Shown here: one piece after another, positions 4,146-8,025 of the stretch
How the letters are laid out: each line of letters begins with the position of its first letter
Position numbering within the stretch: position 1 is the first letter of the stretch
Source: Ignavibacteriales bacterium
Lineage (GTDB): Bacteria > Bacteroidota > Ignavibacteria > UBA10030
DNA: 64,000 nucleotides
NCBI GenBank assembly: GCA_026390595.1
Contig: JAPLFQ010000007.1
Coordinates: forward strand, 1 to 64,000
Direction: 5' to 3'
Position numbers and translations under genes: made by a program
Notes under the pieces: generated by a model
Told to the model about the DNA's origin: nothing
The model's input: only the letters and a program-made list of their open reading frames with translations
The model's database searches: none

Positions 4146-5396
4146 TCAACTTATCCCCGAGATCACAAGAACGGCGCTCAGTATCATGAGAATAATCGAT
4201 GTCGTCCATCCAATAACATTCTGGTACCGTTTGTTCGTGTATTCCCCCATGATCTCAGGCTTGTTGATGATGAGCATCATACAGATAAGGACAACAGGCA
4301 GCAGAACGGCATTGAGCACCTGTGTCCAGATTGTGATTGCAATGAGCGGAGCGTTGGGGAGCAGGATAATGCCGACACCCGTGAGAATCGTGAAAGTGAA
4401 CAGAGTATAGAACTGCGGGGCCTCGGAGAACTTCTTGTCTATGCCGGCTTCGAAGCCAAAGGCCTCACAGATGAAAAATGCCGTAGCGAGGGGGAGTATG
4501 GCGGCCGAGAACACCGAAGCGACGAAAAGTCCGAACGCGAACACCTGTGATGCAAGCGCCCCCGCAAAAGGCTTTAATGACATCGCGGCATCCTTGGCTT
4601 CGTTGATCTGGACTCCGTTGACGTGCAACGTGGCTGCGCATGCGACAATGATAAAGAAAGCCACAACGACCGTAATGATGCACCCGACAACAACATCCCA
4701 GATCGTGTATTTGTAGTCGTCGATGCTGATCCCCTTCTCGATCACGGACGATTGCATATAAAATTGCATCCAGGGAGCGACGGTAGTGCCGATAAGTCCC
4801 AGCACCGTCGTGAGGTACTCATTGTCCCATTGAATTTTCGGGGCAATCATCTCTCTTCCGATTTGTCCCCAGTCCGGCTTGGCAAGGATAGCCGACACAA
4901 TGTAGGAAAGCAGAAAGACGCTGAAGAAGAGAAAAATCTTCTCCGATATCTTGTAGTTTCCCTTGACGACAAGGATCCACACGGCGATTGCAGCAAGAGG
5001 GACAGAGATGTACTTGTCGACATTGAAGACCGCCATGCTTCCTGCGACGCCGGCGAATTCCGTTGCGGTGTTGCCGATATCGGCAAACAGGAGCAGTGCG
5101 AAAAGGTAGAACGTGATCCGCACGCCGAAATTCTCGCGAATCAGATCGGCAAGACCCTTGCCAGTAACGATTCCCATGCGCGCGTTCATCTCCTGCACCG
5201 TCAGGAGCGCGATAAACGACGGAAGGAGAGTCCAGAGCAGCTTGTAGCCGTACTTCGCCCCTGCCACCGAGTATGTGGTAATGCCTCCGGCATCGTTGTC
5301 GACGCTGCCGGTGATAATGCCCGGCCCGATCACGCTCAGGAAGATAAGCATGTTGCGGAATGCCGGCCGGTCTTTCAATCGTTGCAGCAAACCCAT
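4146..5396 (-). CDS. NRAMP-related divalent metal (probable Mg2+) transporter
   Basis: A 416-residue, roughly 11-TM member of the NRAMP/MntH superfamily. TM1 opens GPGIITGSVDNDAGG, so the canonical DPGN metal motif reads DNDAGG (residues 33-38). The TM6 MPH motif reads APW (207-209), losing the methionine ligand that favours transition metals. NRAMP-related magnesium transporters are reported to lack this methionine. Its start lies one base after the stop of a soluble MgtE-like protein, again pointing to Mg2+. Manganese or another divalent ion cannot be excluded. Confidence 0.85.
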   Translation of the reverse strand: MGLLQRLKDRPAFRNMLIFLSVIGPGIITGSVDNDAGGITTYSVAGAKYGYKLLWTLLPSFIALLTVQEMNARMGIVTGKGLADLIRENFGVRITFYLFALLLFADIGNTATEFAGVAGSMAVFNVDKYISVPLAAIAVWILVVKGNYKISEKIFLFFSVFLLSYIVSAILAKPDWGQIGREMIAPKIQWDNEYLTTVLGLIGTTVAPWMQFYMQSSVIEKGISIDDYKYTIWDVVVGCIITVVVAFFIIVACAATLHVNGVQINEAKDAAMSLKPFAGALASQVFAFGLFVASVFSAAILPLATAFFICEAFGFEAGIDKKFSEAPQFYTLFTFTILTGVGIILLPNAPLIAITIWTQVLNAVLLPVVLICMMLIINKPEIMGEYTNKRYQNVIGWTTSIILMILSAVLVISGIS

Positions 5397-5397
5397 C

Positions 5398-6693
5398 TTA
5401 CCCCTCGGCTGCCTGTTTTACTTCCGGGAAGACCGCGTCGAGCGTGTCACGCATCGTAATGATGCCCTGGAGCTTGTCGTTTTCATCAACGACTGGAATC
5501 GCTTCGAACTTGTATTTGAAAAACAACTGGGCCATTCGTTTGACGCTGGAATCCAGGCGCACGGAAATGATATTCCCCCGCATAATGCTTGAGATAACGG
5601 CTGTGCTCTTCGTGGAAAGCAATTGGCGCAGCGTGACAAGACCCTTCAGCCGTTCCTCATCATCGATGATATAGACGTAGTAGAGCAACTCGGTTTGTTT
5701 GATCTCTGCCTTCACCATCTTCAGCACTTCTTTGACTGTCTGAGTTTCTCTTGCAGTGATGAAGCTTGTGTTCATGATGCTTCCAACGCTGAAAGCGGAG
5801 AGCTTCGTCAGGTCATGGATTTCTGCGACGCGCTCCTGCGTGAGAAGACTGAAAACCGCTTCACGCTTCTCCTTGTCAAGCTCGTCGAGAAGGTCGACGG
5901 TTTCGTCCATCTGCATCTCAGAGATGATGCTTGCGAGCTTTTCGGTGTCGAGCGCTTCCGCCATCTGGACGCGAAGGTTAATCGCCATTTCCTGAAGTGT
6001 AGCGGCCGCTGTTGCCGGACTGATCGACTCGAGCAGCGAGATGCGTTCGTCTGTGCCGAGATCTTCAAGGATGTCCGCAAGGTCCGCCGGGTGTATGGCA
6101 GAGAGCTTCGAGGAATCGGCCTTCATAATCACGGCTCCGTGGACGTTTGTCGCCGTGGTCGGCTGAACATTCTTCCACGTGAGAAACTTGTCGTTGATGT
6201 CGCGTGCGATGAGCCAATGGAAAATCGGATTGAGAAAATTCACCCAACCCAGGCGCCGGAGTAACCCCTTGACGCCAATATCAATGTGCACCAGCCAAAG
6301 GTTCGGGTTATCCTTAGAGGAATTGTCTATAAGCAACTGCAAGTCATTGACCCGCACAAGCTTATATCCTGACGTCGAGATAATCTGCTTGTCGAGGAAC
6401 GTCTCCTTGAGAAGAATTTCGTTTTCTACCGATTCCTGATTGGTGCTCTCGAAAGGATATTCAACCGTGACATGCTTCTTGAAGACTGTCAAACGTACGA
6501 GATTCCAGGGAATGTACAGCGGCTTCTCACCTTCGTGCATCGAGGCGATCAGCGCCGTGATCTTCGGATACACGTGGCTTGTCCGTGCGGCGAGGTCATC
6601 GATCCGGCCGATCCTCTTCCCGGTCGAGGCGTTGAAGATCGGAAGGTGAAGGATCTCCGAGATATATATGAAATTGAAGTTGTCGCCGCTCAT
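5398..6693 (-). CDS. Soluble MgtE-like sensor: PRC-barrel, MgtE_N and CBS-pair protein
   Basis: A 431-residue cytoplasmic protein without membrane segments. The N-terminal part (about 1-80) looks like a PRC-barrel (GKRIGRIDDLAA). A middle region holds the MgtE N-domain signature (LSAIHPADLADILEDLGTDE, about 190-300). The C-terminal third carries two CBS motifs ending with FEAIPVVDENDKLQGIITMRD. In the MgtE channel the N and CBS domains sense cytoplasmic Mg2+ and gate the pore. Here the sensor is made without a pore and is followed after one base by the NRAMP-related transporter, so it probably gates or senses for that protein. Confidence 0.85.
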   Translation of the reverse strand: MSGDNFNFIYISEILHLPIFNASTGKRIGRIDDLAARTSHVYPKITALIASMHEGEKPLYIPWNLVRLTVFKKHVTVEYPFESTNQESVENEILLKETFLDKQIISTSGYKLVRVNDLQLLIDNSSKDNPNLWLVHIDIGVKGLLRRLGWVNFLNPIFHWLIARDINDKFLTWKNVQPTTATNVHGAVIMKADSSKLSAIHPADLADILEDLGTDERISLLESISPATAAATLQEMAINLRVQMAEALDTEKLASIISEMQMDETVDLLDELDKEKREAVFSLLTQERVAEIHDLTKLSAFSVGSIMNTSFITARETQTVKEVLKMVKAEIKQTELLYYVYIIDDEERLKGLVTLRQLLSTKSTAVISSIMRGNIISVRLDSSVKRMAQLFFKYKFEAIPVVDENDKLQGIITMRDTLDAVFPEVKQAAEG

Positions 6694-6879
6694 GCGAGGT
6701 CCGTTTCTCTCAGGAAGTGCTTGAAGATAACACGAAAGATTGAGAAAGTCTATGCGGGATGTGAAGAGAAGGGATATCCGTGTTGGTGCGTGAAGCGTGT
6801 TCGAAGACTACGTGTTGCCCCTACACGGCACAGATGAGCGTCTTGTCATCTGCTGAACGCCGGGCGTTGACAGCGGTGA

Positions 6880-8025
6880 TCAGACTCTTCCGCGGAGTAT
6901 CTTCCACCGGTCAATCACCTCGTACCCCTTGACCACATTATAGTAGTCGAAGTTGGCGGCCGTCAGGCAGGAGTGATGTTCCAGGATGCGGACTTTGTCT
7001 CCCACCTTGTAGTGATCTTGCAGCCTTGAACTCTCTGAAATCAGGACTTTTCCGTGTTCCTGTGACAAGGTCTTCACGTGCACGTGAGCCTGAAGCCGCT
7101 TGCGGTCATAGTCCTCATAAAGAATCCCCATATCCATATCATTGCTGATATGCAGGGGGCCGGGGTCCTTTGAGAGGGCGAGCGCTCCGGCATCGATGAT
7201 GAAGTGTGATGCCCCCGGCTGGTGCGAAACAACCGAGGCAAGCACCGTCAGGGCGCAATCAGCGACGCCGCAACTGCCGAGCATGACTTGTGTGTTGTCG
7301 TAGAAAGCATAGTTTCCGGGTCGGATTTCGTTGATGCCCTCAAAGTTTTCCGTCACGGACATGGTTGGAGTGGAGCCGACACTCACCACAGGAATCTTGT
7401 ACCCCTTGGTTCTCATGCGCTCCGCAAACTCGACCATCACGGAGCGTTCCTGATCGGCGACAACCTGTATGTCTGCCCGGTTGCGGGAGTCGTACGCGTG
7501 CCCTGAGTGAGTCAGGATGCCATCGAAGACGAGATTTTTTGATTCGTTGAGTGACCGGATGAGTTGTTCGGCATTCGGGGATTTTGGATCGACGCCGGCG
7601 CGATGGTAGCCGCAATCGACCTTGAGCCACACGTGAATTCGTTCGCTGCCGACCCGTTCGATCGCATTGAGCCTCTCGAACATTTCCATGCTATCGATAA
7701 CGACACGCGCTGTCGTTTTGTCGGACAACGCCAGAATTTTTTCGATGTGATCCGGTATCAGCGGAAGAGCCCACGTGATGTCGTTGAATCCGGCAGCGGC
7801 GAACTGTTCCAGTTCGAACAGCGTCGAGACGGTGATGCCGCGGGCTCCCAACTCCAATTGATGATTGGCAATCTCCACGCACTTATGGGTCTTGATGTGT
7901 GGACGCAGTGAAACGCCGAAGGAGTTCGCGCGGTCCTGCATTCTGGTGAGATTCCGCTCGAGTATACCCTGGTCGAGGAGCAGCGCTGGGGTTGGAAGTT
8001 CGAAGATGGATCCTGCTGGTCGCAT
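6880..8025 (-). CDS. D-threonine aldolase / D-serine dehydratase-like PLP enzyme
   Basis: A 381-residue alanine-racemase-fold enzyme of the DSD1/D-threonine aldolase family. The PLP lysine lies in RPHIKTHKC (K45). The C-terminal EHHSC motif (His and Cys near residues 350-353) matches the metal site found in this family. It probably splits a D-beta-hydroxy amino acid. The frame is open further upstream to 8154, but that N-terminal extension is low-complexity and unrelated to the family; MRPAGSIFELPTPALLLD at 8025 is the expected beginning. No strong ribosome-binding site is visible at either start. Confidence 0.85.
   Translation of the reverse strand: MRPAGSIFELPTPALLLDQGILERNLTRMQDRANSFGVSLRPHIKTHKCVEIANHQLELGARGITVSTLFELEQFAAAGFNDITWALPLIPDHIEKILALSDKTTARVVIDSMEMFERLNAIERVGSERIHVWLKVDCGYHRAGVDPKSPNAEQLIRSLNESKNLVFDGILTHSGHAYDSRNRADIQVVADQERSVMVEFAERMRTKGYKIPVVSVGSTPTMSVTENFEGINEIRPGNYAFYDNTQVMLGSCGVADCALTVLASVVSHQPGASHFIIDAGALALSKDPGPLHISNDMDMGILYEDYDRKRLQAHVHVKTLSQEHGKVLISESSRLQDHYKVGDKVRILEHHSCLTAANFDYYNVVKGYEVIDRWKILRGRV

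Follow-up and report, generated by a model that had tools for sequence, protein, structure and literature searches.

For CabNRMT and EleNRMT, members of the NRMT (NRAMP-related Mg2+ transporter) branch of the SLC11/NRAMP superfamily, Mg2+ transport is in print; a lack of coupling of this transport to H+ counts as a mark of NRMTs. In the relevant passages of Shin et al. (2014, PMC4072509), most NrmT genes are reported to adjoin a gene homologous to the N-terminal cytoplasmic domain of the Mg2+ channel MgtE, and the partner is speculated to have a feedback control or chaperone role. MgtE itself closes at high Mg2+ (PMC5882242). No work on this partner later than 2014 was recognised from titles and the opening parts of abstracts, in a search outside which most subscription papers lie, and the searched passages of two later family papers (PMC9606685, PMC8806188) do not mention it. 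A pair of this kind is encoded in the window, which is the whole stretch of DNA analysed here, 64,000 nucleotides from an Ignavibacteriales bacterium (assembly GCA_026390595.1, contig JAPLFQ010000007.1, positions 1 to 64,000). The MgtE-like gene is called the sensor gene below.

5398..6693, minus strand: sensor gene, 431 aa, ATG start (open reading frame, Pfam, AlphaFold2 domain limits)
5397..5397, minus strand: single-base spacer between the sensor stop and the transporter ATG (sequence)
4146..5396, minus strand: gene of an NRMT-type Nramp transporter, 416 aa, ATG start (open reading frame, Pfam, nearest solved structure)

We consider it reasonably probable that this pair consists of a Mg2+ importer of the NRMT branch and a dedicated soluble Mg2+-sensing regulator that acts on it in trans. 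Mg2+ would be the substrate of the window transporter, the sensor would bind Mg2+, and the two proteins would form a complex. Both genes lie on the same strand with the sensor gene first, its TAA stop at 5400-5398 and the transporter ATG beginning at 5396, and the single intervening base agrees with the spacing given in the initial annotation of this DNA. The named loci nearest to the pair come from Ignavibacteria/Bacteroidota draft genomes.

The transporter matches Nramp (PF01566, 332 bits) as its only Pfam family. Among solved Nramps the nearest is EleNRMT (7qia; 366.8 bits, E 1.4e-108), any other reaching at most 104.7 bits. The NRMT signature is given in the relevant part of PMC8806188 as DxxG in transmembrane segment 1 (TM1) and TxxA/T in segment 6 (TM6), and the window transporter, besides being nearer to EleNRMT than to MntH, carries both elements:

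5283..5294, minus strand: TM1 metal motif D35-A-G-G38, the DxxG of NRMTs (sequence; motif definition PMC8806188)
4776..4787, minus strand: TM6 metal motif T204-T-V-A207, the TxxA of NRMTs (sequence; motif definition PMC8806188)

With flanking residues the two motifs read D33-N-D-A-G-G38 and T204-T-V-A-P-W209. The initial annotation had read DNDAGG and APW as replacing DPGN and MPH, and the positions in the alignment bear this out, DPGN being present in 12 and MPH in all of the 13 MntH-type rows (the TM1 stretch is missing from one of them) and neither being present in the window transporter. A further set of Nramp-like genes, group C (L163-L182, L019), reads DDDPSG in TM1 and TTISPY in TM6 in 16 of its 21 rows, has no sensor gene nearby, and coexists with an NRMT in some genomes (e.g., G002, G003, G012, G028 and G029).

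Pfam assigns a PRC domain (7-80), MgtE_N (200-296) and two CBS stretches to the sensor and no MgtE channel domain (PF01769), so that the channel-less PRC-barrel, MgtE_N and CBS arrangement described initially stands. In an AlphaFold2 run that used 80 of the 97 collected sensors (mean pLDDT 82.4, pTM 0.50), two N-terminal beta domains are predicted (7-80 and ~92-178), followed by a low-confidence linker (181-192), MgtE_N and the CBS pair (~300-422). Residues 81-195, which comprise the second beta domain and the linker and have no Pfam match, hold 12 of the 28 columns that are invariant or nearly so among the sensors, with the densest conservation in the second beta domain. This second conserved N-terminal barrel outside Pfam, as predicted by the model, is a new point, and it may be a second PRC barrel. 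The PDB matches listed for the sensor contain no PRC entry, which excludes nothing because matches to the MgtE and CBS parts take up the lists. The term PRC-barrel occurs 0 times in PMC4072509, and no paper pairing it with NRMT or MgtE was found in mostly non-subscription literature. The best solved relative of the sensor is the cytosolic part of Thermus thermophilus MgtE, over residues 196-424 (E 5.1e-32).

Pairing of the two genes recurs wherever NRMT genes were collected. In 61 relatives, each of the 16 NRMT genes found at E below 1e-70 adjoins a sensor on the same contig. In 296 genomes of the phylum, 38 of the 40 NRMT genes of at least 229 bits lie beside a full-length sensor, and the remaining two (G082 and G229:C105) are at contig ends, each with a sensor fragment; these figures omit one more truncated match (G229:C67). 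The full-length sensors among the matches listed in these genomes are the same 38 that neighbour a transporter. A sensor, in some cases cut or split, is held by 77 of the 80 named loci; at L065 and L079 the contig edge is too near to judge, and L080, considered as a sensor-free NRMT, was dropped when the sensor was found in two pieces on another contig of its genome. Twelve Acidobacteriota NRMTs without a sensor in the fetched region were dropped likewise, since all 12 genomes hold one elsewhere. Counted by motif, with duplicates and rows under 330 aa removed, 106 of 109 distinct NRMT sequences are linked to a sensor, and none of the 34 other Nramp sequences is (21 in group C, 13 in group D; 30 of the 34 with at least 800 bases on both sides). 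Given these counts, the pairing of the window genes is far from chance. Gene order is mostly sensor-transporter in clade A, the clade of the window, and transporter-sensor in clade B, which is ~37% identical and consists mostly of one Bacteroidota-side family (f26).

The pairing also extends to genomes in which the genes are apart. Partners were sought in 297 genomes from the phylum to which G345, that of the Acidobacteriota-labelled draft L091, belongs, a match of at least 240 bits defining an NRMT genome; PRC-type sensors were searched with one sensor query at E <= 1e-30, taking the best 5 candidates per genome, so that a distant sensor could escape. The search found a sensor in 76 of 83 NRMT genomes, and inspection raised this to 82 by adding six in which it lies beside the transporter (G345, where it is frameshifted, G411, G538, G454, G363 and G613). 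In the seventh missed genome, G607, a contig end cuts the side on which its clade carries the sensor; G481, which has a truncated NRMT-like match and no sensor in its 6 kb at a contig end, was not counted. Among the NRMT-free genomes the single-query search found a PRC-type sensor in 0 of 214, a more sensitive profile not having been applied to these. The pair is unlinked in 20 genomes, 18 with the genes on different contigs, G628 with ~1.3 Mb and G406 with ~0.2 Mb between them, and at least nine changes of arrangement (upstream, downstream or unlinked) are counted on a FastTree tree, which has 183 rows with EleNRMT and 4 outgroup rows and carries a long-branch warning. Therefore, the pairing outlives linkage, and strict co-occurrence even between distant genes implies that the partner matters in trans. 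This nearly exclusive co-occurrence of NRMT and sensor, surviving without linkage, is new here. Co-occurrence across genomes had been put forward in the initial annotation as a check on its proposal, and it is recurrent in every count (16/16, 38/40, 77/80, and 82/83 versus 0/214). In the Acidobacteriota set, L219 (G602) has a tandem duplication of the NRMT gene (5176-6465 and 6573-7811), the second match containing one internal stop.

The cytosolic sites of MgtE are Mg4 (D91/D247), Mg5 (D226/D250), Mg6 (D95), Mg7 (E59), Mg2 (E258) and Mg3 (D259), according to the relevant passages of PMC5882242; D214, which those passages do not name as a site, was tallied too. Sensor residues aligned with the Mg4 and Mg6 ligands are the following:

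5905..5907, minus strand: sensor D263, equivalent to MgtE D91, site Mg4 (alignment, conservation; site name PMC5882242)
5893..5895, minus strand: sensor D267, equivalent to MgtE D95, site Mg6 (alignment, conservation; site name PMC5882242)
5446..5448, minus strand: sensor D416, equivalent to MgtE D247, site Mg4 (alignment, conservation; site name PMC5882242)

The window sensor has an acid at the D91, D95, D247 and D250 positions, with A in place of E59, K in place of D226 and S in place of D214, so the full set Mg2-Mg7 is not present. Beyond the CBS pair, sensors have a median of 7 residues and MgtE channels 194, so that the plug helix sites (E258, D259) have no room in the sensors. In 72 clade-A sensors an acid is kept at D91 in 65, at D95 in 72 and at D247 in 70, and at the other positions in 13 (D226), 12 (D214), 35 (E59) and 45 (D250). 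The corresponding counts in 20 MgtE channels of related genomes are 20 for D91, 16 for D95, 20 for D247, 18 each for D226 and D214, 14 for E59 and 19 for D250. The apparent selective retention of Mg4/Mg6 ligands in the sensor, as judged from these alignments, is new here.

Genome context points to Mg2+ as well. A scan for the M-box (RF00380) covered all 80 named loci. Of the 12 Bacillota loci, 9 have one immediately before the sensor gene (a contig edge truncates L076), and some of these loci encode transporters 72-73% identical to that of the window. The M-box preceding the pair in Bacillota is listed among the new points here, and an M-box before the Bacillota operon is also part of the comparison with Shin et al. 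At L096, where a sensor-NRMT pair is under M-box control, a NiCo riboswitch match (6327-6412) follows the pair at a distance of ~90 bases. Of 16 NRMT genomes, 2 have the MgtE channel domain, versus 32 of 45 NRMT-free relatives (p 7e-5, not corrected for kinship), and in the phylum set it is present in 0 of 6 clade-A NRMT genomes and 237 of 257 others; the genome of the window has no PF01769 match. The clade of the window tends to replace the MgtE channel, which is a further new point. Neither MgtE nor CorA is present in 6 of the 16 NRMT relatives (G002, G003, G009, G013, G028 and G030), and the window's genome has one CorA-like gene. Elsewhere, a CorA-like gene that shares the strand of the sensor gene lies ~0.8 kb from it (G031:C205:4943-5779), and G017 has one ~4.3 kb away. 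The window's genome also encodes a separate canonical MntH of 623 aa with the motifs YMDPGN/ATVMPH (L001:1351-3219), beside an MntR/DtxR-like gene (L001:616-1350); this label, and the resemblance of the C-terminal stretch of that MntH to a universal-stress domain, come from sequence reading.

The mechanism that we propose takes the sensor as the cytosolic N/CBS module of MgtE without its channel, borne by the two N-terminal beta domains. At high cytosolic Mg2+, the ion would bind at the interface of the N domain and the CBS pair (Mg4/Mg6-type ligands D263, D267 and D416), the Mg2+-bound module would close, and the beta domains would relay this closure to the cytosolic face of the transporter, slowing import. 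When Mg2+ falls, the brake would come off. A brake on import at high Mg2+ is suggested as the direction of regulation by analogy, because MgtE closes at high Mg2+. If true, this is how a Mg2+-importing NRAMP would be kept from overfilling the cell.

Several observations weigh against a Mg2+ importer under a Mg2+-sensing brake, and the first of them concern the metal. At the gathering score the window matches no Rfam family, not even the M-box, and the M-box is found in 0 of 68 named loci outside Bacillota; it marks a Mg-specific subset and is not a defining feature of all NrmTs (PMC4072509). The MgtE channel is kept in 23 of 33 clade-B NRMT genomes. The Acidobacterium capsulatum NrmT gave full rescue of Mn2+ uptake and rescue of Mg2+ only at low millimolar concentration (PMC4072509), and EleNRMT transports Mn2+ as well as Mg2+ (PMC8806188). 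Together with the missing M-box in the window, these two transporters speak for a protein that imports mainly Mn2+ or another transition metal, with an MgtE-like partner responding to the metal in question, a suggestion made for A. capsulatum. We regard this as unlikely for the window, considering the M-box control of Bacillota orthologues up to 73% identical, the separate MntH in the same genome and the NRMT genomes of the clade, which mostly lack the MgtE channel.

The remaining observations concern the partner. The Clostridium acetobutylicum NrmT restored growth of a Mg2+-transport mutant without the sensor, and co-expression of the A. capsulatum sensor gave no further gain in Mg2+ rescue (PMC4072509). 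A joint sensor-transporter fold (read-through model, L067, 856 aa) has a pTM of 0.69 and is compatible with contact; having no interface read-out, it demonstrates no complex. Among 8 aligned clade-B sensors D91 is kept in none and an acid at D95 in 3, with D247 and an acid at E59 in all 8, and clade-B transporters keep the NRMT motif although these D91/D95 ligands are lost or mostly lost. In one Acidobacteriota sub-clade D91 is replaced by G or S and D247 by Q or H, D95 being kept. Persistence of the pairing where ligands are lost, in these two clades, would suit an MgtE-like protein that serves as an assembly, membrane-targeting or nucleotide-responsive (CBS) partner and not as a metal switch, as would the concentration of conserved columns in the second beta domain and the match of the CBS pair to nucleotide-bound AcuB, CBSX and DarB structures. 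The constancy of D95 (72/72) and D247 (70/72) in clade-A sensors makes such a partner improbable there, and D247 is stricter (69/71) than the adjacent threonine (T or S in 44/71), which we take to belong to the CBS nucleotide motif. A metallochaperone or buffer that does not gate transport has very little probability, in our view: it was an alternative offered by Shin et al. and fits the unchanged rescue on co-expression (PMC4072509), but the related module gates in MgtE (PMC5882242) and the present data give no sign of metal transfer. Because the pairing is wider than the metal site, the putative Mg2+ switch is well supported, on the conservation of its ligands, for the clade of the window only.

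The spacing of the two genes, taken between stop-to-stop frames, differs with the ligands: where a linked sensor has both D91 and D247, it is at most 184 bases from the transporter frame (26 of 26), and where it is without them the distance is 545-5550 bases in 16 of 20 cases. The ligand-poor Acidobacteriota sub-clade (L214-L216, L218, L220-L222, L229, L231, L232 and others) has G/S at D91, A at D92 and Q/H at D247 in its sensors, an operon opened by 1-5.5 kb in most members, and A, S or T at the variable TM6 position. Other Acidobacteriota NRMTs (L225, L228, L259-L268) have TTITPF and mostly ASG motifs and are 43-47% identical to the window transporter; their unlinked partners (sensors L269-L280) have an acid at D91, D92, D95 and D247 in 12 of 12 genomes.

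Some further ideas were dropped. A coupled switch, in which a TM6 change from A to T (TTITPW) accompanies loss of sensor D91/D247 in Acidobacteriota, was rejected as a general rule. A first tally had ligand loss in 8 of 8 clade-A TTITPW pairs versus 0 of 10 with TTIAPW/TTVAPW; in a larger one, ligand-poor sensors accompany 8 of 33 A-type transporters, and 12 TTITPF and 4 TTISPY transporters have intact sensors. The test on independent pairs had 3 pairs only and no power. Three long frames resembling natural sensor-transporter fusions (929, 947 and 1147 aa; L186, L193 and L237) have their sensor match in a different overlapping frame of the same strand. Programmed frameshifting was discarded because the split sensors of L095, L043 and L091 break at differing places, draft-sequence errors or decay being likelier. 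A comparison of the transporter loops that we presume to be cytosolic gives no ground for claiming a docking site. In it, clades A and B share the TM6 end QSxV(I/V)(E/D)KG with EleNRMT, and groups C and D do not have it; the insertion in loop 8-9 occurs in group C too.

The split Mg2+ sensor-transporter system of the initial annotation is sound as an idea but not new, having been printed in 2014 (PMC4072509). It is upheld by the NRMT signature, the nearness of EleNRMT, the M-box in close orthologues, the co-occurrence and the replacement of the MgtE channel in the clade, and it is qualified in that the sensor is not a plain copy of that of MgtE, with only the Mg4/Mg6 ligands well kept in the clade of the window and fewer in two other clades, and in that, in the one co-expression test of a sensor met with in print, the A. 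capsulatum sensor was without effect and its transporter acted as a Mn2+ importer. What is added here is that the pairing is nearly exclusive and persists where linkage is lost, and that the sensor retains its ligands selectively. More tentatively, the pair may represent an SLC11/NRAMP carrier controlled in trans by a soluble sensor that has only the Mg2+ site at the N/CBS interface of MgtE and signals by way of two beta domains in place of a plug helix. On this view the gating module of MgtE would be a portable Mg2+ switch that passed from the channel to a carrier unrelated to it, with its metal site changed or lost in some lineages; if this is true, unrelated Mg2+ transporters would have a sensor module in common. 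The unequal loss of MgtE ligands yields a short list for mutation (D263, D267 and D416), and the ligand-poor clades provide natural controls.

Compared with known systems, the window pair has the same two families, adjacent and in one direction, as the NrmT and MgtE-cytoplasmic-domain pairs of C. acetobutylicum and A. capsulatum (PMC4072509). The sensor gene is upstream, as in A. capsulatum (pair Acp2976/2977); it is a single gene, whereas the C. acetobutylicum sensor is split in two. Of the two operon features in Shin et al., the window has the adjacent homologue of the MgtE N-terminal domain and, unlike the Bacillota operons, no M-box in front. MntH, the canonical bacterial Nramp, belongs to the same Pfam family as the window transporter, but its DPGN/MPH motifs are replaced in the window and, in contrast to the window transporter, none of 13 MntH-type genes has a sensor nearby. 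EleNRMT of Eggerthella lenta (7qia, PMC8806188) is the nearest solved structure and has NDAGG and TT(V/I)APW-type motifs in common with the window transporter, reading GNDAGG/TTIAPW where the latter reads DNDAGG/TTVAPW. On its own, EleNRMT is described as unsuited to cryo-EM (PMC8806188). The MgtE channel of T. thermophilus (2yvy, 2zy9) shares its N domain and CBS pair with the sensor (29-30% identity in the structure match), which is without the channel domain and has two added N-terminal beta domains. Its Mg5 and Mg7 ligands are lost or scrambled in sensors of the window's clade, and its Mg4/Mg6 ligands D91, D95 and D247 are kept.

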